A stretch of 64,000 bases of DNA from Erythrobacter sp. (GTDB lineage: Bacteria > Pseudomonadota > Alphaproteobacteria > Sphingomonadales > Sphingomonadaceae): positions 496,001 to 560,000 of the forward strand of contig JAACTB010000007.1 of assembly GCA_009993605.1 (NCBI GenBank), read 5' to 3'. The notes beneath the pieces were generated by a model. The model was not told where the DNA came from, searched no databases, and was given only the letters and a program-made list of their open reading frames with translations. The position numbers and the translations under genes were made by a program. Below are positions 24,404-37,179 of this stretch, in pieces; within the stretch, counting starts at the first letter, position 1; every line of letters begins with the position of its first letter.

Positions 24404-25132
24404 TTAACGGCCCTGAGTGATCGTGAGCGCCTGCCCGGCGGGTTGGTCAATCGCGATGGCAAGATTGTCGCCCGTTTGCGTCAGCATCAGTTGATTTCCA
24501 CCGTTTTGCGTGATCAGCGCGGCATTCGCGTTGCCATTCTGGCGGATTTCGGCCTGATTGTCGCCTCCGTTCTGCGTGAGGTCGAGCAGGTTGGAGGAAC
24601 CCGACTGAATCGCCAGTATGCCGTCCGCCTCGCTTCCGCCAAGCTGGCGCAGGTGCATGCGGTTGCCCTCGCCGCTTTGCTCGGTAAGCGCGACGAGACT
24701 GGCCTCGCCACTCTGCGTCAGATCAAACGTATTGTCCGTCCCACGCTGGCTTGCGCGCACATAGTGCGAGCCGGTGCCTTCCTGGTTCGAGGAGGCGCGA
24801 TTGTTCGCGCCGTTCTGGTCGATGCGCGCATAATGGCCCGCATCGGTTTGCTCGATCGCCGCCCGGTTGCCGCTGCCGATCTGATCGATGAATGCGCCTC
24901 TGTCCGCATTGGGACGCGCGATGATCGATGGCGTGGTGGGGGGCTTGGCGTGTCCGGCATTGCCCGGCGCGCCGCCATTGCCGTTATTGCCCTGGCAGGG
25001 ATTTCCGTTCGACTTCGCGCAGGGATCTCCGGGCGGAGTGCCGGGGGCTTTCGCCACGCCCGGCGCGCTCACGAAGACGGCGGCTGCGATCGTGAGCGAT
25101 GCGAAGAGATGTGTGCGCGAAATGTCAGTCAT
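24404..25132 (-). CDS. Curlin-repeat protein (CsgA/B-like) with Gly/Asn/Pro-rich N-terminal linker
   Basis: Repeats such as GSGNRAAIEQTDAGHYARIDQNGANNRASSNQ and GGDNQAEIRQNGNANAALITQNG; start MTDISRTH overlaps the stop of the upstream curlin gene. Confidence 0.85.
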   Translation of the reverse strand: MTDISRTHLFASLTIAAAVFVSAPGVAKAPGTPPGDPCAKSNGNPCQGNNGNGGAPGNAGHAKPPTTPSIIARPNADRGAFIDQIGSGNRAAIEQTDAGHYARIDQNGANNRASSNQEGTGSHYVRASQRGTDNTFDLTQSGEASLVALTEQSGEGNRMHLRQLGGSEADGILAIQSGSSNLLDLTQNGGDNQAEIRQNGNANAALITQNGGNQLMLTQTGDNLAIAIDQPAGQALTITQGR

Positions 25133-25538
25133 CGCTGTTCCCCTGACGAACCACGGCACGATTTCCCGAACCGCGCTGGACGACGGTGGCGGAATTGCCA
25201 TTGCCCGATTGGGTCAGGCGGGAGGAATTGCAACCGCCCCCTTGCGTGATGTTCGCGGACGAGCTCTCGCCCGACTGCGCGATGTCGAGAACGCTGCCAT
25301 CGTCCGACTGGATAGCCAGCGCGGCGTGGTTCTTGCCGTGCTGTTCGATGCGGACCGTTCCGTCGCCGTTGCGCGTGACCTGGGCGGTATGCCCTTCGCC
25401 GGTGCGCACGATCGTGGTCTTTCCGTCCTTGGGCATGGCTGTGTCTCCATCGCATTGCGGGGCTGCCGACTGGGCTCCTCCCGGCGCGGCAACAGCCGCG
25501 GCAAGGGATAGAAGAGCTGATCGAAGTCTGAAAGTCAT
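25125..25538 (-). CDS. Short curlin-repeat protein (CsgA/B-like)
   Basis: Start MTFRLRSALLSLAAAVAAPGGAQSA (signal peptide) at 25538; ITQGGGCNSSRLTQSGNGNSATVVQRGSGNRAVVRQGN repeats. Confidence 0.85.
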   Translation of the reverse strand: MTFRLRSALLSLAAAVAAPGGAQSAAPQCDGDTAMPKDGKTTIVRTGEGHTAQVTRNGDGTVRIEQHGKNHAALAIQSDDGSVLDIAQSGESSSANITQGGGCNSSRLTQSGNGNSATVVQRGSGNRAVVRQGNSDD

Positions 25539-25650
25539 GGCAGCGCCCTCGAAATCGTGTTTGTCTGGTCCGCGGCGCTCATGCGCGAAGGACATCGAAG
25601 AGCCCGAAGGCGCACCGGGCGGCGCGTATCGCCGCCTGGTGCGTCCGGGT

Positions 25651-28600
25651 TCAGTTACCGCCTTGCGAGACGGTGGCGGTGTTGTTCGAACCCGCCTGGG
25701 AGACGGTCGAAATCGCACCCGTACCGGTCTGGGTAACGTCGGCCAAATTCATCGTGCCCGATTGGGTGATGTAGCTTTCGTTCTCCAGGCCACCCTGGCT
25801 CAGGAGCGCCCGGTTCTGGCTCCCGCCCTGAGTGATTTCGGACAGGCCCAAATCCCCGGTCTGGTCGGAATCGACGAAGTTTGCCGAGCCTCCGGTTAGC
25901 TGGCTCACGGTCGTCGCGTTGGACGTCCCGATCTGGTCGATAAAGGCCACATCATCGGTGCCGGACTGCGAGACGGTGAGGACGTTCGCGGTCCCAACCT
26001 GATTGGTGTAGACCGCCAGAGAAGGCGTACCAGCGTCGAACGCATTGTCGGTCGCGATACCGTCTTGCGTCACCGTGGCCCGGTTCTCGTCGCCGCTCTG
26101 CTGGGTCAATATACGACCCAGCGAACCCGCGTTCGGCCCGGTCACCGTTTGCGTCGCGGAGACGAAGTTCTCGTTTCCGGTCTGCGCCACGCGCGTTTCT
26201 CCGTCGGCACCATCCTGCAGGATGGTGCTTTCGTTTTCACGGCCGGTTTGCGTTTGGAACGCGATGTTACCGATACCGGTCTGGTCGATATCGCTCTCGT
26301 TGCCCACGCCGTTCTGTACCACGTTCGCGACGGGAGAAGCTGTCACGCCGGACGTGAAATTGCCGAAACCGCCCGCGCCCGACTGATTGACATCGGAAGA
26401 GTTGCCGTCACCCGATTGGATCACGCTCGCACCGGCGCTGTAGGAGAAGGTGCCATTGGTGGAGGACTGCGTGATCGTCGAGGCCTGGTTCGTACCCGAC
26501 TGATCGACGGAGGCGTAGTTCAGATCACCCGATTGCGTGACGGTCGACGTGCTGTTGTCACCCGATTGGACGACGGACAGGACGCCATTCGACCCGGTCT
26601 GCACGGCAAGCGACGTGTTGCCATTGCCGGATTGCAAGACATCCGAGAAGTTTCTCGTCCCCGACTGGTCGATATCGCTGAGGTTGCCATCGCCGCTTTG
26701 GGTGAGGGCCGCCTGCGGATCGAGGCCCGCCTGATCGATAAAGGACCGGTTGTCGTCGCCAGACTGAAGCGAGCGGACGGTATTGTCGAACGCCCTGTTC
26801 CCAGTGAAGCTCCATGCCCCGTCCTGCACCACATCGGATTGGTTGCGATCGCCTGACTGGATGATCGCGGTGTCCGTGAGTTGCGGTGGGACGTTGGTGA
26901 CGAAACCCGATTGCATGAGGTTCGAACGGTTGTCCGAACCCAACTGCGCCACGATCGCGCCGGTCACGTCGCCCGACTGGATGATCGTCGACTCGTTGTC
27001 CGAGGCGCTCTGGTTGACGAAGGCGAAATTGCTCGTCCCGGTCTGCTCGATCGTGGAGTCGTTGTTGTTCCCCGACTGATCGACATTCGCGTAGGACACG
27101 TTCGTTGCGCCGTCAGCCGTGAAGATCGTGCCAATGCCCCCAGTCGACGACTGGTCGATGTCCGACGTGTTGTCCGAACCTTCCTGACGCACGCGGGCGG
27201 TCTGGAAACGCGAGGTCTGAGCGACGTCGGACGACTGCCGCTCGCCGAACTGGTCGACATAGATCGAACCGCCCAGATCGGTCTGCGACGCATAGGACGT
27301 CAGATTGGTACCGGTCTGGTTGACGAAGATCGAACCGCCATCGTCGTTCTGCGTGGTCGAGGAGGAGTTCTCGTCGCCTTCCTGCATCACGAATGCGCGG
27401 TTGTTGTCGCCGAATTGCGCGACCAGGCTTTCATTGGTCGGAGCGTTGGCCGGGGCGGCGAGGTTGGAACCGTCCTGGTCGACCTCGGCAACCGAATTGC
27501 TTCCGGTCTGCGTGATCCGCGAAGCATTGCGGGCGTGCGTTCCGCTCTGATCCACGGTGGCCGTGCTGGCACCGCTCTGGTCGACGATCGAGGTGTTGTA
27601 GACGCCCGACTGCGTGACACCCGCGCTGGCCGCGGCGGTCTGCACGATGCTCGAACGGTTGAGGATCCCGTTCTGGCCCACCGTCGCGTTCGCGCCATCG
27701 GCCGACTGGTCGATCAGCGAGACGTTGTTGGCGAAGCTTTCTCCGCTGCCGCTCGGCGGCGGGAATTCATCACCGTCCCAGCGGCGCGAGCCGAGCCCGT
27801 TGACACCGCCACCCTGCGTTACGCTGGCCGTCGCGCCGCCGGACTGCGTGATGCGGCTGGTGTTGCCGTCACTGGTCTGAAGCGTAATGGCCGAGGCGCC
27901 CGCGGCGGTCCCGGTCTGCGCGATGGTCGATGCGTTGTCATCGCCCGTCTGCGTGATCGAGGCGAAGGCCGGGGCGGCATCCTGCGTGATCGTCGCGGCA
28001 TTGTCGTCGCCGGTCTGGCTGATGAACGCGTCCGCGAAACTCTCGCCTTCGACCGGCTGGGTCGGCGGCGAGGCATCGCCGGTGCCATCGGCACTCTGGC
28101 GCAACACGTTCGCATTGTTGCCGTCACCATCCTGCATGACGACCGCATTCGCGAAATCGCCGGACTGGTTGACGTTGGCGATGTTGGCATCGCCCGTCTG
28201 CATGACATCGGCAACCGTGTTGTCGCCGCTCTGCATGATCGTGCTGAGGTTGAAATCACCGTTCTGCGTGACGCCGACGCGGTTGTCGGGATCGGCGCTG
28301 TCGTAATCGTTGTCGGGATCGCCCACGGCGCCGTTCACCCCGGTCTGGATCACCGAACTGTCATTGCCATCGCCCGTCTGGCGAACGCTGGCTTCGTTGA
28401 AGCGCGCGCTCTGCGAGATGTAGGAGAGGCTCGATCCGTCCTGATAGACCGAAGCGTTCTGGGCGCCGCCCTCCTGCTCGATCTCCGATTCCGCCGCATC
28501 GCTGACCTGAATGACGCTCGCGCGGGCACCCTCGCCGGTCTGCGTCACTGTGCTCTCCGCACCGTCGGTATCCGCCTGCTGCTGGACATCGGCACGATTG

Positions 28601-28767
28601 TTGCGATTGCTCTGGGTGATCGTCGAGGTGCTGAGTGCACCGGACTGAGTGACGGTCGCGTCCTGGCCGGAGCCGGTCTGGGTGGCGGTGCTGGTGTTGT
28701 TCTGGGCCATCGCGGGCGCTGCAAGGAGCGCGATGGTCGAAACGCCGATTAGAATGGATTTTTTCAC
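25651..28767 (-). CDS. Giant curlin-repeat amyloid protein (1038 aa)
   Basis: MKKSILIGVSTIALLAAPAMAQ signal peptide followed by N/Q/S/T/G-rich repeats throughout (TVTQSG, DNRSFIDQAG, NNTATVSQGGN), matching curlin periodicity. Confidence 0.92.
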   Translation of the reverse strand: MKKSILIGVSTIALLAAPAMAQNNTSTATQTGSGQDATVTQSGALSTSTITQSNRNNRADVQQQADTDGAESTVTQTGEGARASVIQVSDAAESEIEQEGGAQNASVYQDGSSLSYISQSARFNEASVRQTGDGNDSSVIQTGVNGAVGDPDNDYDSADPDNRVGVTQNGDFNLSTIMQSGDNTVADVMQTGDANIANVNQSGDFANAVVMQDGDGNNANVLRQSADGTGDASPPTQPVEGESFADAFISQTGDDNAATITQDAAPAFASITQTGDDNASTIAQTGTAAGASAITLQTSDGNTSRITQSGGATASVTQGGGVNGLGSRRWDGDEFPPPSGSGESFANNVSLIDQSADGANATVGQNGILNRSSIVQTAAASAGVTQSGVYNTSIVDQSGASTATVDQSGTHARNASRITQTGSNSVAEVDQDGSNLAAPANAPTNESLVAQFGDNNRAFVMQEGDENSSSTTQNDDGGSIFVNQTGTNLTSYASQTDLGGSIYVDQFGERQSSDVAQTSRFQTARVRQEGSDNTSDIDQSSTGGIGTIFTADGATNVSYANVDQSGNNNDSTIEQTGTSNFAFVNQSASDNESTIIQSGDVTGAIVAQLGSDNRSNLMQSGFVTNVPPQLTDTAIIQSGDRNQSDVVQDGAWSFTGNRAFDNTVRSLQSGDDNRSFIDQAGLDPQAALTQSGDGNLSDIDQSGTRNFSDVLQSGNGNTSLAVQTGSNGVLSVVQSGDNSTSTVTQSGDLNYASVDQSGTNQASTITQSSTNGTFSYSAGASVIQSGDGNSSDVNQSGAGGFGNFTSGVTASPVANVVQNGVGNESDIDQTGIGNIAFQTQTGRENESTILQDGADGETRVAQTGNENFVSATQTVTGPNAGSLGRILTQQSGDENRATVTQDGIATDNAFDAGTPSLAVYTNQVGTANVLTVSQSGTDDVAFIDQIGTSNATTVSQLTGGSANFVDSDQTGDLGLSEITQGGSQNRALLSQGGLENESYITQSGTMNLADVTQTGTGAISTVSQAGSNNTATVSQGGN

Positions 28768-28793
28768 GGTAATTCCTCCCTATTGAGGATCAG

Positions 28794-28835
28794 CAAAAAA
28801 AGGATGGCCGACGCTCCGATCGGAGCGCCGGCCAT
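28794..28835 (-). terminator. Intrinsic terminator between the two large curlin genes
   Basis: Minus strand reads ATGGCCGGCGCTCCG-AT-CGGAGCGTCGGCCAT followed by CCTTTTTTT: 15-bp stem with one G.U and a 7-T tract, just past the 28841 stop. Confidence 0.85.
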
Positions 28836-28840
28836 TTCGG

Positions 28841-30778
28841 TTACATGGGCGTGTTGCTGCCGCTCTGGGTCACGGTGGCGGTGTTGTTCTCACCGGCCTG
28901 CATGATGGTCGAGACGTTGCCTGCCGCCGACTGGTTGACGGTCGCCAGGTTACCTTCACCCGACTGCGTGATGTAGGATGCGTTGTCGAACCCGTCCTGC
29001 ATCACAGTGGCGAAATTGTCCGAACCCGACTGGTCGATTTCGGAGTATGCTTCGCTCGAGCCGGTCAGCTGAACCAGGCTGGCTTCGTTGCTCGTGCCCG
29101 ACTGGCCGACGCGCGAATAGCCGTCATTGCCCAGCTGGGAGACTTCGACCGCCGCGACCGTGTTGGTCGCCAGCGTGGCGTTGGTGCCCGACTGGTTGAC
29201 GAGCGAGTCATTGCCTTCACCGATCTGCTCTACGAATGCGCTGGTCAACGAAGACTGCGTGATCATCGAGCTGTTGATGTCATTCGCACCGGCGGACGCG
29301 TTGGGGTTCGTCTGACGGACAGTGGCGAGGGCACCGGCAGCGCCTGCTTCCTGCGCGATGTCGGACATGTTCTGCTGACCGGTCTGCTCGACATCGGCGA
29401 TCGCTGCCGAAGCCTGAGTGATCGACGACTCGTTGCTCGGGAAGTAGGTCGGCGCGGTGCTGTCGCCGTTCTGCGTCACCGTGGCCATTGCGCCGTCCGC
29501 GGACTGGTCCACCATCGAGTCGTTGTCGCCGTATTCACCCGCCTGAGTCACGTTGGCGGTGGCCGCAGCAGTCTGCACGATATCCGAATTGTTGAAGATA
29601 CCGTCCTGATCGACAGTCGCGGTCGACACGCCGCTGGCATTCGACTGGCTGATGTCCGAGCGGTTGAGCTGACCGTCCTGAGTGAGCGTCGCAACGGTTT
29701 CACCGGTGTTGGACTGAGTCACCCGCGAGAAGTTGCTGCGAACGGTGTCGCCGAACCGGTCGCGCGGGCTCGTACCGTTGATGCCGCCGACAGTGGTCTG
29801 CGTGACATTCACCAGGCCGGTCGAGGAGGACTGATCTACCAAGCTGTCGTTCTGGTCGCCGTACTGCTGGATATTGGCCAAATTGCCTGAGGCGGAGTCC
29901 GACGGGTCCGACTGCTCGACCCGCGACAGGTTGTCATCACCGCTCTGGAGGACCTTGACGATCTGGGCGTCGCGGATCCCGGTCTGAACGACCGAGGAGA
30001 TGTTGCCGTCGCCGGTCTGATCGACAGTCACCAGCTGACCGGACGTACCACCGGCAGCCGGGTTCGTAACGTTCTGGATGATAACCGAGTCGTTGTCGCT
30101 ACCGATCTGGGTGTTCGAGGCTTTCACCCCGGTGGCGCCGGTCGGCGTCGCGCTGGCGAAATTGCCCTGATAGATTTCCGAATTGTTCGAAGACCCGGTC
30201 TGGATGATCCCGCCATTGGTGTTGCCGGGATTGCTGTCGCCCACGCTGGCCTTGTTGCCGGCTTCCTGGAACACCATCGCGGTGTTCTGGCTACCGCCGT
30301 TCTGCAGGACCTCGGCGGAGGTATCGAGGCCGCCATTCTGCGCGATGAACGAGCTGCTGTCGCCGACCTGCGTCACGAGCGCGGAGTGATTGCGCGTATT
30401 GGTCTGGAGGATCGCCGATTCCGAGCCGACGCCGGACTGCCGGACGACGGCCTTGGTCGGAAAGTTGGCGATGCCCGCATTCGACTGGAGAATATAGGAC
30501 GATGCATCTTCGCCCGACTGGGTAACGGTCGCCTTGGCACCGGCCGAGCCCTGGTTCTGGTCGATGTCGGAGACGTTGCCGTCGCCGCTCTGCGTGACGG
30601 TGGCGGTCAGGTTGGTGCCGTTCTGATTGATCACCGAACAATTATTGTCGGCATCGGCGCATTCCGGGCTGCCGGGCAGAGCGGAGGGCGATGTGGGAGC
30701 CGCGGGTGCCGATTGCGCAAGCGCGGGCGTGGCGGCGAAGGCCATCGCGGAAACCGAGGCGAGGAAAAGCTTTTTCAT
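28841..30778 (-). CDS. Large curlin-repeat amyloid protein (645 aa)
   Basis: Signal peptide MKKLFLASVSAMAFAATPALAQ; repeats GDGNVSDIDQNQG, GEGNLATVNQSAAGNVSTIMQAGENNTATVTQSG; good RBS (TTAGGAGC-ATG). Confidence 0.92.
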   Translation of the reverse strand: MKKLFLASVSAMAFAATPALAQSAPAAPTSPSALPGSPECADADNNCSVINQNGTNLTATVTQSGDGNVSDIDQNQGSAGAKATVTQSGEDASSYILQSNAGIANFPTKAVVRQSGVGSESAILQTNTRNHSALVTQVGDSSSFIAQNGGLDTSAEVLQNGGSQNTAMVFQEAGNKASVGDSNPGNTNGGIIQTGSSNNSEIYQGNFASATPTGATGVKASNTQIGSDNDSVIIQNVTNPAAGGTSGQLVTVDQTGDGNISSVVQTGIRDAQIVKVLQSGDDNLSRVEQSDPSDSASGNLANIQQYGDQNDSLVDQSSSTGLVNVTQTTVGGINGTSPRDRFGDTVRSNFSRVTQSNTGETVATLTQDGQLNRSDISQSNASGVSTATVDQDGIFNNSDIVQTAAATANVTQAGEYGDNDSMVDQSADGAMATVTQNGDSTAPTYFPSNESSITQASAAIADVEQTGQQNMSDIAQEAGAAGALATVRQTNPNASAGANDINSSMITQSSLTSAFVEQIGEGNDSLVNQSGTNATLATNTVAAVEVSQLGNDGYSRVGQSGTSNEASLVQLTGSSEAYSEIDQSGSDNFATVMQDGFDNASYITQSGEGNLATVNQSAAGNVSTIMQAGENNTATVTQSGSNTPM

Positions 30779-31063
30779 TTCATGCTCCTAAGGATCGAGA
30801 ATTGCGGCCCGACCCGCGACCGCCGGATGCGGAAGTGGGTCAGCTTCGGCCCGTTGTCCGGGCTCGAAAGTTTTTGGCTGCTTTTTCGGAGGAGCGGGAA
30901 CCGCGGCGTTAGCACGCGATTAACCATGCGGGCGTAGGACGGATGACCTTGCCTTTGAAACATGGTTGTAAATCTCCCTCCGGAGGTCGATAACCATGCC
31001 TGTCCTTTTCCTTACGGATCTGGACAGACTTGGTTGTTGACGCACAGCAGCTTTGTCGAACCG

Positions 31064-31099
31064 GGCGCGTCGAAGCTGCAACTTCGGCGCGCCTTTTCT
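31064..31099 (+). terminator. Plus-strand intrinsic terminator-like hairpin with no annotated upstream plus-strand gene
   Basis: GGCGCGTCGAAG-CTGCAA-CTTCGGCGCGCC then TTTTCT: 12-bp stem with one wobble and a U-rich tail on the plus strand. Confidence 0.65.
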
Positions 31100-31215
31100 A
31101 TTCACCGGTCGTTCGCCCGATCTGCAAATCGAACGTTCGGCCACCGGACAAATCCAATTCGATCGCGGAGTCCGGCGTCCGACGATCTTTCAGGCACCGC
31201 GCCTTGCGACGCGGG

Positions 31216-32232
31216 TCAATTCATGCGGCCATCCCCCTTTCCATCGCGGGGCCCGCTGTCGACATTGTCGATCGCGGCGGATCGCTTAATACGTTGCGGC
31301 GCGGCAGGCGGCGCATCGCGCATCGCCTGTTCGATTGCTTCGGGATCAACTTTCCCGTCACGCTCGCGCTTGTATTCCCACAAAAGAGGCCAGCCGGCTT
31401 CGAAATTCTCGAACTGCCACAGGTCGAGTTCGACGCCTTCGAGAACGAGGCCGTAGACCGCCTTCTCGATGGCCTGCTGAAGAGCAAGCTGATCGGGCTC
31501 GTTCGTGGTGTAGCCCGCTTCGGCCTGGAGCAGTTCCTTGAACGCGACATAGCGGAAGGCGTTGGCCCCGATGGCCTGGCTGGCGATCGTCTTGGAAGCG
31601 GTGACCGTGGTCAGAACCTCGCCGGTCCTGACCGATACCGCCCGCAGATACACCGTCACGGTGTCCTGCCGGTATTCGCTCCGCCCACCGATACCGAGAA
31701 ACGCGGCGCCGTATCCGCCGGTCACGGTGTTTGTATCGTAACCGACGATCCCGCCTTCCAGCAGGACGCCTGCGAACAGCAGCGACGGAAGCGCCTGCGG
31801 ATTGACCTGTTCCTCACCCAGATAGCGCTCGCGCATTTCGCGGATGATCTGGCGTTCCGACAACAGGTTCTTGAGCGATTCACGCTCGACGATGGTGAAC
31901 CATTTGCGCTTGCCCGCGTCCTGCAAAGCCTTGGCGAGGATCGAACCGCCGCCTTGGCTGACCGCGCGCGAGAGAGTCTGTCCCGCCTCGGTCGGCTTGA
32001 ACTGGCCGGTCTGGTCCGTGAAGCCATAGACCGCGACGGCGATCGGGCGGGACGGAGCGGGCAGCCCTTCGAGCAAAGTCTGGGTCTGCGTCTTGTCGGG
32101 CACGAACGCCTTCGAGCGCGTCTCGGGAAAGTTCGAGCGACCGTCTTCGGTCACGGTGGCGCACCCCGCCAGGCCCATGGCGACGATCGCCGAAAGCGCC
32201 AGGCTGCGAAGGGAATGATGCATCATGGCCAT
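31216..32232 (-). CDS. csgG: Curli production/secretion lipoprotein CsgG/HfaB family
   Basis: Lipobox GLAGCATV; AVAVYGFTDQTGQFKPTE...SRAVSQGGGSILAKALQDAGKRKWFTIVERESLKNLLSERQIIREMR...VYLRAVSVRTGEVLTTV. Confidence 0.95.
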   Translation of the reverse strand: MAMMHHSLRSLALSAIVAMGLAGCATVTEDGRSNFPETRSKAFVPDKTQTQTLLEGLPAPSRPIAVAVYGFTDQTGQFKPTEAGQTLSRAVSQGGGSILAKALQDAGKRKWFTIVERESLKNLLSERQIIREMRERYLGEEQVNPQALPSLLFAGVLLEGGIVGYDTNTVTGGYGAAFLGIGGRSEYRQDTVTVYLRAVSVRTGEVLTTVTASKTIASQAIGANAFRYVAFKELLQAEAGYTTNEPDQLALQQAIEKAVYGLVLEGVELDLWQFENFEAGWPLLWEYKRERDGKVDPEAIEQAMRDAPPAAPQRIKRSAAIDNVDSGPRDGKGDGRMN

Positions 32233-32235
32233 CGG

Positions 32236-32646
32236 TCAGTCGATATCGATGAAGGTCGGGATCACGATGGTCGTGACTTCCCCGGTGGCGTTGTCGGTGA
32301 TGGTGAGCGTGATCTCGGTCAATCCGCGCACGAAGCTGATCGTCTGGCCACCGAAGCTGATCGTCCCGCGCTCCTGAGGATTGTCGCCAAAAATGGCATC
32401 CACGATCTGAGACGAAAGGGCGGACAAAAGCCGCGACTGCAATTGGCGGGCGAAGATATCGGCCTGCGAATTGGTAGTGGCGCGGTCGGGATCGTCGTAA
32501 TCGTTCTGGGCGTTGGCGACGCCGAGGAGATGCGCGGAATTGAACGGGTTGCCGCCGAAGCTGGGATCGATCGGTTCGTAGGACAGGTCCTGCGCCGAAG
32601 CCGGCACCGCGATCGTCAAGAAGAGTATCGGGACAAACAGGCGCAT
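32236..32646 (-). CDS. csgF: CsgF-like curli assembly protein
   Basis: Signal peptide MRLFVPILFLTIAVPASAQ then DLSYEPIDPSFGGNPFNSAHLLGVANAQNDY, the CsgF hallmark; immediately upstream of csgG. Confidence 0.92.
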   Translation of the reverse strand: MRLFVPILFLTIAVPASAQDLSYEPIDPSFGGNPFNSAHLLGVANAQNDYDDPDRATTNSQADIFARQLQSRLLSALSSQIVDAIFGDNPQERGTISFGGQTISFVRGLTEITLTITDNATGEVTTIVIPTFIDID

Positions 32647-32729
32647 GCTGCCCCCCGCGCCAAAGCCGTACATGAAAATTCCCCCTCCAAGCGGGCTCCG
32701 AGAGCCTCTCGTCGTTAATGGTTTGTAAA

Positions 32730-32865: not shown

Positions 32866-33576
32866 TCATACCGCGTCGAACGCCACGATAAGCCGCACCA
32901 GCTCGCGAGCGTTGTGAACGCTCGTCTTGTTATAGATGTGCTTGAGATGGCTGCGGACCGTCGCCGCACCAATCCCCATCTGCTTGGAAATCGCCTGAAC
33001 GCAGTCGAGGTGCGCGAAAAGATCGACGACCGTGCATTCCGTGGGTGTCAAACCGAATTGCGCCGCGAAACCGTTCGATCGGCAATCCGTCCGAGGCGCA
33101 GAAAGCGAGAAGCGAATCAGCCGGGCAGGCTTGCCCTCCAGGTCGAGGCGATGACAGTGCAGGACCACCCACTCGTTCGCGGGATCGATGCGAACGACCA
33201 GCCGCTCCGTATTCGTGCCCGCGTGTAGAAGCGTGTGGAAACGGTCATCGCTCTCAGCGTCCGGAATCGTCATTTGAATCGATCCGGGCGCCAGCAAGTG
33301 AAACGTTTTCAGGATCTGCGAGCCCGCAGTGTTGCTCCACACGATGCGCGCCTTCCTGTCGACAATCGCCAAAGCCACGTCTTGCGAAAGAACCCGCCCG
33401 ATCTCACCGGCAAATTTGAGCGGGAGTCGGCCCGACGGGAGAAACGCCGCTTCCGTCGCAGAAGAGCCCGACGATGCGACTTTGCTCGAGGCGGCTTCGT
33501 TTGAAAGGGTCGATCGATGTGAACTGGATTGAACCGCTCGGCTCATTATTCGGTTGTTCCCCGGCACGCTCGACAA
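32866..33576 (-). CDS. LuxR-family HTH transcriptional regulator (CsgD position)
   Basis: C-terminal FGLTPTECTVVDLFAHLDCVQAISKQMGIGAATVRSHLKHIYNKTSVHNARELVRL: LuxR/GerE HTH; upstream of csgF. Confidence 0.88.
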   Translation of the reverse strand: MSSVPGNNRIMSRAVQSSSHRSTLSNEAASSKVASSGSSATEAAFLPSGRLPLKFAGEIGRVLSQDVALAIVDRKARIVWSNTAGSQILKTFHLLAPGSIQMTIPDAESDDRFHTLLHAGTNTERLVVRIDPANEWVVLHCHRLDLEGKPARLIRFSLSAPRTDCRSNGFAAQFGLTPTECTVVDLFAHLDCVQAISKQMGIGAATVRSHLKHIYNKTSVHNARELVRLIVAFDAV

Positions 33577-34973: not shown

Positions 34974-35978
34974 TTACGCGGCGCTCATGCGGATATTGCC
35001 GTTCACGCCATTGGGGAAGAAGCCCCCGCCGGTCGTCGACATGGCCGTAAGATAGGCGATGTTGAGGACCTGTCCGGCACTACGGCTGTAGACGATCGCA
35101 TTGTTGTCGGTAGGAACGATGTTCGTGCCTTCACCGAACGCCGTGCTCCGCGGGCGGATACCCTGGTCGAGATCGCTCGCGCCATCGAGGCTGTCGCGCG
35201 CATTCGAGATCGCTTCGCTGGCATCGATCAGCGCGGGAGCCTGGAGCCCCTTACGATACAACACCGTGCGAACCAGCCCCGCGTGATAGGCTTCCGCCGC
35301 GAGGATGCCGGCAGCCGCTTCGAGGAAGGCCTTGTTGGTAATCAGCGGTGACGCTCCCTTGTAGGCCGTCACACCGACATCTTCGAAGATGTAGGCGGCC
35401 AGAAGGAAGTTGTTGTCGTTCGCGTAGGGATCGAAGCTCTGCCCCGGGCCGACCAGGCCCGCAGCCCGCGCGGCGGACGAGAAGGCTCCATTGGGTGCGG
35501 TGCCGATATCGATCGCCGGTTGCGCCACTGCCGCAGTGCCGAGCGCGCTGCGCAGGAAGGCGACGTGCGCCCGCTCGTCCGAAGCGATCTCGCGCGCATA
35601 TTGCGCCACCAGCGGATCGGTGAAGTTAACCTTGCGGCCACCCGTCGCTTCGCCCCTCGTCCCGGTTCCGTCGAGCAGATTGCTCGCCAGCCCCGACCCG
35701 GTCGCCGCATAGAGATAGAACTGCGCTTCCAAGTATTCGAGGTTCAGCGCGAAGTTAAGCACATCCCCATCGTTCAGCGCGCTGCTGGGGGCGGGCGTCG
35801 GAGCGGGCGTGGGCGCCGGCGTTCCGCCGATTGGCGGCGGCGTGTTGTCGTCCCCGCCACAACCCACCAGCGAAAACGCTGCGGTGCTGGCTCCGGCGAA
35901 GTGCAGGAATCGGCGGCGCTCAAGGCGACGGTCGGCTCCGGCCTGCATGACCTCAAGGATGATATCGCGGTCTTTCAT
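34974..35978 (-). CDS. Ferritin-like domain protein with Tat/lipoprotein-like signal
   Basis: [51 protein letters not shown] and ASDERAHVAFLRSALG ferritin-like helices. Confidence 0.85.
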   Translation of the reverse strand: MKDRDIILEVMQAGADRRLERRRFLHFAGASTAAFSLVGCGGDDNTPPPIGGTPAPTPAPTPAPSSALNDGDVLNFALNLEYLEAQFYLYAATGSGLASNLLDGTGTRGEATGGRKVNFTDPLVAQYAREIASDERAHVAFLRSALGTAAVAQPAIDIGTAPNGAFSSAARAAGLVGPGQSFDPYANDNNFLLAAYIFEDVGVTAYKGASPLITNKAFLEAAAGILAAEAYHAGLVRTVLYRKGLQAPALIDASEAISNARDSLDGASDLDQGIRPRSTAFGEGTNIVPTDNNAIVYSRSAGQVLNIAYLTAMSTTGGGFFPNGVNGNIRMSAA

Positions 35979-35999
35979 GCTCGTATCCTCTCGGTTTAA

Positions 36000-36959
36000 T
36001 TAGTTTGCCGCGCTCATGCGCAGAGTGCCGTTGACGCCGTTCGGGAAGAAGCCCCCGCCGGTGACGGCCATATTGTTGAGATAGACGATGTTGAGCACCT
36101 GTCCGGCGGAACGGCTGTAGGCGAGGCCATTCGCGTCCAGCGGGGCGATGTTGCTCGCCGTGCCGCCGCTCATCTGACTGGTGGTCAGCCCCTGGTCGAG
36201 GTCGGTCGACCCGTCGAGGCTGTCGCGCGCGTTCGAGATCGCGATCGAGGCATCGATGAGGGCCGGGGCCTGCATCCCCTTCGCATAAAGCGTCGTGCGC
36301 ACCAGACTCGCGTGGTAGGCCTCGACCGCCAGAATGCCGGCCGCCGCTTCTAGGAAGGTCTTGTTGCTGATGAGGGGGGAAGCCCCCTTGTAAGCGGTGA
36401 CGCCGACATCTTCGAAGATATAGGCCGCGAGGAGGAAGTTCTCGTCGCTGGCATAGGGGTCGAACGATTGGCCCGGCCCGATCAGCCCCGCAGCGCGCGC
36501 CGCGGTGGAGAACGCTCCGTTCGGGCTGGCGCCGATGTCGATCGCGGGCTGCGCGACCGCGGCGGCGCCGAGTGCGCCGCGCAGGAAGGCGACGTGAGCC
36601 TGTTCGTCGGCGGCGATCTCGCGAGCATAAGCAGCCACGGCGGGATCGGTGAAGTTGACGCGGCGTCCGCCAGTGGCCTGGCCCCTGGTGCCGGTGCCCG
36701 ACAGCAGGCTTTCCGGGAGACCGGCTCCGCTTGCGGCGTAGACGTAGAATTGCGCTTCGAGATATTCGAGATTGAGCGCGAAATTCAGAATGTCACCGTC
36801 CGACACGCTCTGCGCGGCGACGGGGCTGGACTTGTTGGCGAGGACGAAGCCCCCTGCCGCGGCGGATGCGGCGGCGAATCCACGAAACATATCGCGACGG
36901 CTGGTCCTGCGACCCTCGCGAGCCTCGAGGACCTCAATAATTTTCTGATCGTCTGGCAT
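36000..36959 (-). CDS. Ferritin-like domain protein with Tat-like signal, paralogue of 34974-35978
   Basis: [95 protein letters not shown], closely matching the neighbour. Confidence 0.85.
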
Positions 36960-37179
36960 CGGAAACTCCCTCGAGACTCGATCTGGCTTAACGAGGGCCA
37001 ACCTACCGGGAAGCGCGCTTTGCGCAGTGCTGGGTACGGCAGCGTACGAAAAAACTGCGCATAACCGCGTAAAACTAAAATGGTTGATCTTCGCGACCGG
37101 TTGGCTCGGATACATCGTAACTCTGCCGACAGGAAATCGAGACCATCAAGGCCTCGGCACGCGGCGGGGGAGTTCAGGG

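Follow-up and report, generated by a model that had tools for sequence, protein, structure and literature searches.

The analysis of a 64,000-nucleotide stretch of contig JAACTB010000007.1 (hereafter the window) makes it highly probable, as judged from sequence, that this Qipengyuania species carries a functional operon for curli (type VIII secretion), of the type found in Alphaproteobacteria, with long CsgA-like proteins as its subunits. A CsgG channel, CsgF and secreted curlin-repeat proteins are encoded together in one operon, with csgF and csgG lying upstream of four consecutive minus-strand curlin genes (Table 1). Two components of this operon look new: a structured RNA leader situated after csgG and before the first curlin gene, and the product of the last gene, termed orf253.

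Table 1. Features of the curli operon and its flanks (coordinates of the window)
Feature	Position	Strand	Evidence
orf253, last gene of the operon, 253 aa	23642..24403	-	curli-only family
Last curlin gene, 242 aa	24404..25132	-	Curlin_rpt; orthologue in 11 closest curli operons
Short curlin gene, 137 aa, about 4–5 repeats	25125..25538	-	Curlin_rpt
Second curlin gene, 1038 aa, GTG start, about 36–40 repeats	25651..28767	-	Curlin_rpt, motif counts, AlphaFold2
Terminator-like GC hairpin with T-run, located between the first two curlin genes	28804..28835	-	
First curlin gene, 645 aa, about 20 repeats	28841..30778	-	Pfam Curlin_rpt
62-codon ORF after the leader, TGA overlapping the ATG of the 645-aa gene	30775..30963	-	
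RNA leader, ~145 nt, candidate cis-regulatory RNA, downstream of csgG and ahead of the first curlin gene	30961..31105	-	
Hairpin H1 of the leader	31063..31094	-	covariation
csgG, secretion channel	31216..32232	-	PF03783, E=8e-59, 199 bits
csgF	32236..32673	-	PF10614, E=1.2e-33
LuxR-type (GerE) regulator, upstream of csgF	32866..33576	-	PF00196, E=5e-9

An earlier note on this DNA had described a curli-like locus with four consecutive curlin-repeat genes, the largest of which was guessed, from its length, to hold roughly 40 repeats. This description holds well: csgF and csgG do precede the curlin genes, the coordinates and sizes were right to within a few residues, and all four proteins exceed the Pfam cut-off of 20.7 bits for Curlin_rpt (PF07012), with scores of 105 bits for the 645-aa protein, 263 for the 1038-aa protein, 40.5 for the 137-aa protein and 65 for the 242-aa protein. 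The 1038-aa protein contains 72 strand (half-repeat) motifs, against a mean of 23.9 in composition shuffles (maximum 37, n=500), and 46 motif pairs spaced exactly 11 aa apart, against 0.5 in the shuffles (maximum 4). Its AlphaFold2 model, which is of moderate confidence and had an input of only 8 sequences (mean pLDDT 72.6, pTM 0.61), is a long β-solenoid of 76 strands, mostly of 7–8 residues with short arcs between them, and 4 of the 76 are long enough to represent merged pairs. Together, the 72 half-repeat motifs and the 76 predicted strands imply about 36–40 full repeats, in agreement with the earlier guess. The solenoid is broken up by insertions kept among relatives, for example GAVGDPDNDYDSADPDN and SADGTGDASPPTQPV. 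A Foldseek search of the model against the PDB returned nothing below E=0.001, with other β-solenoids as the top class of matches. The long covalent solenoid envisaged in the earlier note is a reasonable inference, favored by the motif spacing and the strand prediction, even as no solved structure matches it significantly.

Each of the four curlin proteins bears a Sec-type signal peptide, as read from the sequence, and the Pfam search recognized no domain in them besides the curlin repeats; the suggestion of a surface-anchored amyloid is accordingly not borne out. The 242-aa gene is conserved as the last curlin gene of the operon, and its product is the best candidate for, and likely to be, a CsgB-like nucleator, judging by position and conservation only. 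The 137-aa curlin was encountered, among the loci compared, only in the window and in its sister species. Strong GC hairpins, differing in sequence, follow most curlin genes across the genus, and these could set the ratio of the subunits.

csgF is 65–93% identical across the sister operon and ten further operons of the family (L017–L027). The csgG gene encodes the single CsgG of the genome, which is 98% identical to its counterpart in the sister species (dN/dS 0.027). The LuxR-type regulator upstream of csgF shares 72–78% identity with its sister-species counterpart; the other curli loci compared yielded no similar protein, and the regulator showed no match to the CsgD equivalog of NCBIfam. 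Downstream of the curli operon of another genus (L018:9441-10568, plus strand), there is a 375-aa protein with a weak match to a LuxR-type HTH (E=0.15), and hence the regulator may differ between genera. Upstream of the operon, the window additionally encodes two adjacent, similar Ferritin_2 (PF13668) proteins (34974-37115, minus strand).

No csgE was detected in the window genome by a search that recovered the E. coli control, and csgC, csgD and csgE have been reported to be absent from Alphaproteobacteria (PMC3521004). CsgE is therefore no requirement for a curli system in this class, and not every curli operon encodes a CsgC or CsgH inhibitor. In most relatives of the window, a CsgC-like gene of ~110–120 aa directly follows orf253. 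Its product matches exclusively CsgC in the PDB (E=0.024) and aligns weakly with E. coli CsgC in hhalign (E=2.6e-4, probability 42%). Such a gene, resembling those of the CsgH/CsgC inhibitors (PMC4838910), gave strong matches in two relatives (G001 and G003) and none in the window genome (G000) or the sister species, both of which possess the additional 137-aa curlin. Given the absence of a CsgC/CsgH-like inhibitor, the control of amyloid must differ in the window genome.

The RNA leader was recognized through a covariance model built from nine relatives, with the window excluded, which matches the window (E=4e-4 in 142 kb), the sister species and L018. It occurs at the same place in 25 curli operons from several genera (the window and 24 others). 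In a scan of 121 relatives, using stricter filters with which the window genome itself was lost, ten curli genomes had a single match each and the other genomes had none. In 13 curli genomes of other genera the leader lies about 1.0–1.2 kb past csgF, i.e. right after csgG, with 3 of these 13 matches (L058–L060) scoring weakly. The leader folds better than 200 shuffles (z=-4.7), and its hairpin H1 displays double-sided compensatory changes in 32 cells, against 7.9 in shuffles (maximum 16, n=1000), across 21 distinct sequences. These changes affect 8 of the 13 pairs, the signal is destroyed by sliding the partner strand, and the loop is conserved while the stem covaries. A dispersed genomic repeat was ruled out as the source of the hairpin, since H1 occurs once in the window genome. 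Searches of Rfam retrieved no match for the leader region of the window at E up to 1 and none at the gathering threshold for the leaders of four relatives, and a further comparison yielded a chance hit alone (E=3.3).

In 8 of the 12 closest loci, the leader runs up to the start codon of the first curlin gene and ends there; in these, base-pairing is possible between the ribosome site AAGGUG and CGCCUU, as well as between the start-codon region AACCAUG and AUGGUU. In most of these 12 loci the leader can fold over both the ribosome site and the start codon. The central segment (AUGGUUAU and variants) can alternatively pair upstream with UGCGAUAACC, AACCAUGUC or AAUCAUGCU, in three diverged sequence groups. 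Both pairings are possible at the same places in most of the 25 leaders, with single-sequence p-values ranging from 0.005 to 0.9 that are individually not strong; the sequestering stem hardly varies, which makes covariation uninformative for the most part. The arrangement is that of a translational switch, and the evidence for one is suggestive but falls short of decisive. Tentatively, the leader may control translation of the first curlin gene by alternative pairing of the central AUGGUUAU-type segment, which would engage either the ribosome site and start codon or the upstream segment. In the window and the sister species the leader is set back about 180 nt from the 645-aa gene, ahead of the 62-codon ORF, and its effect there is therefore less certain. 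The 62-codon ORF was itself rejected as a gene: its frame is not kept in the sister species, and it is therefore probably not coding.

A different interpretation of the same element, which we regard as unlikely though still appreciable, is that it is not a translational switch, H1 being instead an antisense intrinsic terminator (an A-run precedes it) or a processing or stabilizing element at the 3' end of csgG. On the plus strand H1 is indeed followed by a T-rich run and scores as terminator-like, and the covariance model recognizes its palindromic core on either strand. However, terminator-like sites are no more frequent in this region than in shuffles, a conserved loop on a covarying stem would be unusual for a plain terminator, and the similarity among leaders continues past H1 up to the ribosome site and the start codon, where the leader ends in 8 of the 12 loci.

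The second component that looks new, orf253, begins directly at the stop codon of the 242-aa gene (TAAATG). Its family, represented by an alignment of 12 members (A1), has a signal peptide and a variable region in which curlin-strand-like motifs keep an invariant Q; two cysteines are likewise invariant, and the C-terminal part is predicted to be helical, this being the sole region modeled with some confidence by AlphaFold2 (mean pLDDT 51.6 overall, too low for a fold search). It has no match in Pfam, NCBIfam or the PDB. The possibility that it is a distant version of E. coli CsgE, CsgF or CsgC was rejected, as profile comparison with hhalign produced no alignment, and comparison likewise rejected it as a homolog of the 242-aa curlin. 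Among 301 genomes of the family, orf253 is present in 24 and CsgF in 28, and all 24 genomes with orf253 fall within the 28. This near-strict co-occurrence makes orf253 very probably a curli factor, with a CsgE-like adaptor, an inhibitor, a nucleator or a fiber cap as candidate roles. A scan of the genome collection with a subset of the alignment recovered 7 loci. One homolog, 45% identical to the Qipengyuania query, comes from a contig filed as a Microbacterium MAG (L040, NZTV01000008.1), which is probably a mis-binned Erythrobacteraceae contig. Some relatives also encode a conserved secreted protein of 372–373 aa after the CsgC-like gene (L020:8108-9229, minus strand; L022:10217-11335, plus strand), with curlin-like motifs near its C-terminus (AYIDQIGS...AYMGQI). 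This protein has no Pfam match and was not seen after orf253 in the window.

These observations suggest a scheme in which the 645- and 1038-aa proteins would exit unfolded via Sec and then through the CsgG/CsgF pore, and would fold outside the cell into β-solenoids of about 20 and 40 rungs, the larger being about 19 nm long at 4.8 Å per rung. The solenoids would then stack, both end to end and with one another, to form curli-like fibers, which the 242-aa protein would likely nucleate. Less certainly, orf253 may act as a periplasmic or surface accessory factor that covers the tasks of the missing CsgE and CsgC/CsgH. The earlier note had suggested, from the subunit lengths, a fiber of long covalent solenoids rather than small-monomer polymerization. 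This does not follow, as long CsgA-like proteins have been described as subunits of a shared β-solenoid architecture that polymerize by stacking (PMC10192328), and the operon retains csgF and csgG together with a conserved shorter curlin, a possible nucleator.

It is improbable that the long curlin-repeat proteins are instead covalent cell-attached adhesins or matrix proteins, with the curlin fold serving as a stalk and not as a fiber subunit. This proposal draws on the very large Shewanella adhesins that were reported to contain curlin-like repeats (PMC3521004), and conserved insertions of the 1038-aa protein, such as GDPDNDY and SADGTGDASPPTQP, could display binding loops. Yet curlin repeats are the only domain found in the four proteins and extend up to the very ends of the long ones, which moreover share an operon with csgF and csgG; and Sleutel et al. 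placed insertion-bearing sequences of this type in ordinary CsgA classes (PMC10192328). That the long proteins are subunits of a curli fiber is also in keeping with what is seen in related genomes. The ten further family operons (L018–L027) contain, in this order, csgF, csgG, 2–4 long curlins (about 430–870 aa), a curlin of 230–305 aa related to the 242-aa protein, and an orf253-like gene; relatives of the 1038-aa protein in other loci measure about 770–870 aa. Curlin repeats are present in 17 of 251 genomes of the order, nearly all within the family of the window, where open curlin frames of 500–1065 aa are common; overall, 430–1065 aa is usual. Published curlins range from 4 to 62 repeats per protein, with up to 30 copies per genome (PMC10192328). 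Long curlins are thus typical of the family and lie inside the published range, their length and copy number are not novel, and the main claim of the earlier note, that the locus is unusual relative to canonical curli, falls away.

A 2603-aa CsgF-containing frame in G428 was rejected as a real protein, owing to a run of masked N. In L061 (G367:C1:1901500-1902700), a frame from base 286 encodes 212 aa in which the initial two thirds of csgF are fused to the C-terminal portion of an orf253 homolog; here a deletion took out csgG and all curlin genes in between, which illustrates loss of the operon and confirms the gene order.

The sister species (G062, locus L017) encodes counterparts with the very same lengths of 645, 1038, 242 and 253 aa, each aligning in one piece without gaps at 80–93% identity; for the two long curlins the identity is 91.5–93%, with no indel. 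The dN/dS values against this species are 0.13 and 0.19 for the two long curlin genes and 0.03–0.28 over the operon, and this comparison of coding sequences shows purifying selection on every gene of the operon, with the length of the long genes kept. An artefact of assembly or sequencing behind the repeat length, a concern raised in the earlier note and natural enough for repetitive genes in a draft genome of 29 contigs, is exceedingly improbable, because TRF detected zero tandem DNA repeats and a separate sister genome has long genes of identical length despite 7–8% amino-acid divergence.

Placed beside the csgBAC/csgDEFG system of E. coli, the locus shares the CsgG channel, CsgF and curlin-repeat subunits with signal peptides. 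It differs in being a single operon that lacks csgE, csgC and a CsgD equivalog, in having four subunits that are up to about seven times longer, and in the addition of orf253 and the RNA leader. With the long multi-repeat CsgA homologs described previously (PMC10192328, PMC3521004) it shares repeats of ~22–23 aa, arc insertions and several copies per genome; there is no difference in kind, and its largest protein, with about 40 repeats, sits inside the range of 4–62. The leader would resemble translational riboswitches and RNA thermometers in that its ribosome site and start codon can be paired and an upstream segment may compete for the pairing, and it differs from them in matching no Rfam family and in being found only before curlin genes.

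Control of curli in E. coli acts mainly via the regulator CsgD and the CsgD mRNA. We tentatively propose, with slightly less than even confidence, that a curli-only RNA switch, responding to a ligand, temperature or a small RNA, may control curlin translation in Erythrobacteraceae, and that orf253 replaces the functions of CsgE and CsgC. If true, a structured leader on the subunit mRNA, conserved across genera that lack CsgE and, according to published work on the class, CsgD, would be another way of restraining a toxic amyloid, and orf253 may turn out to be the secretion or anti-aggregation factor that alphaproteobacterial curli otherwise lack. The locus also offers a clean natural case for studying the effect of subunit length on fiber assembly. 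A long-subunit curli locus is in itself ordinary for the family; greater significance would attach to the leader RNA and orf253.
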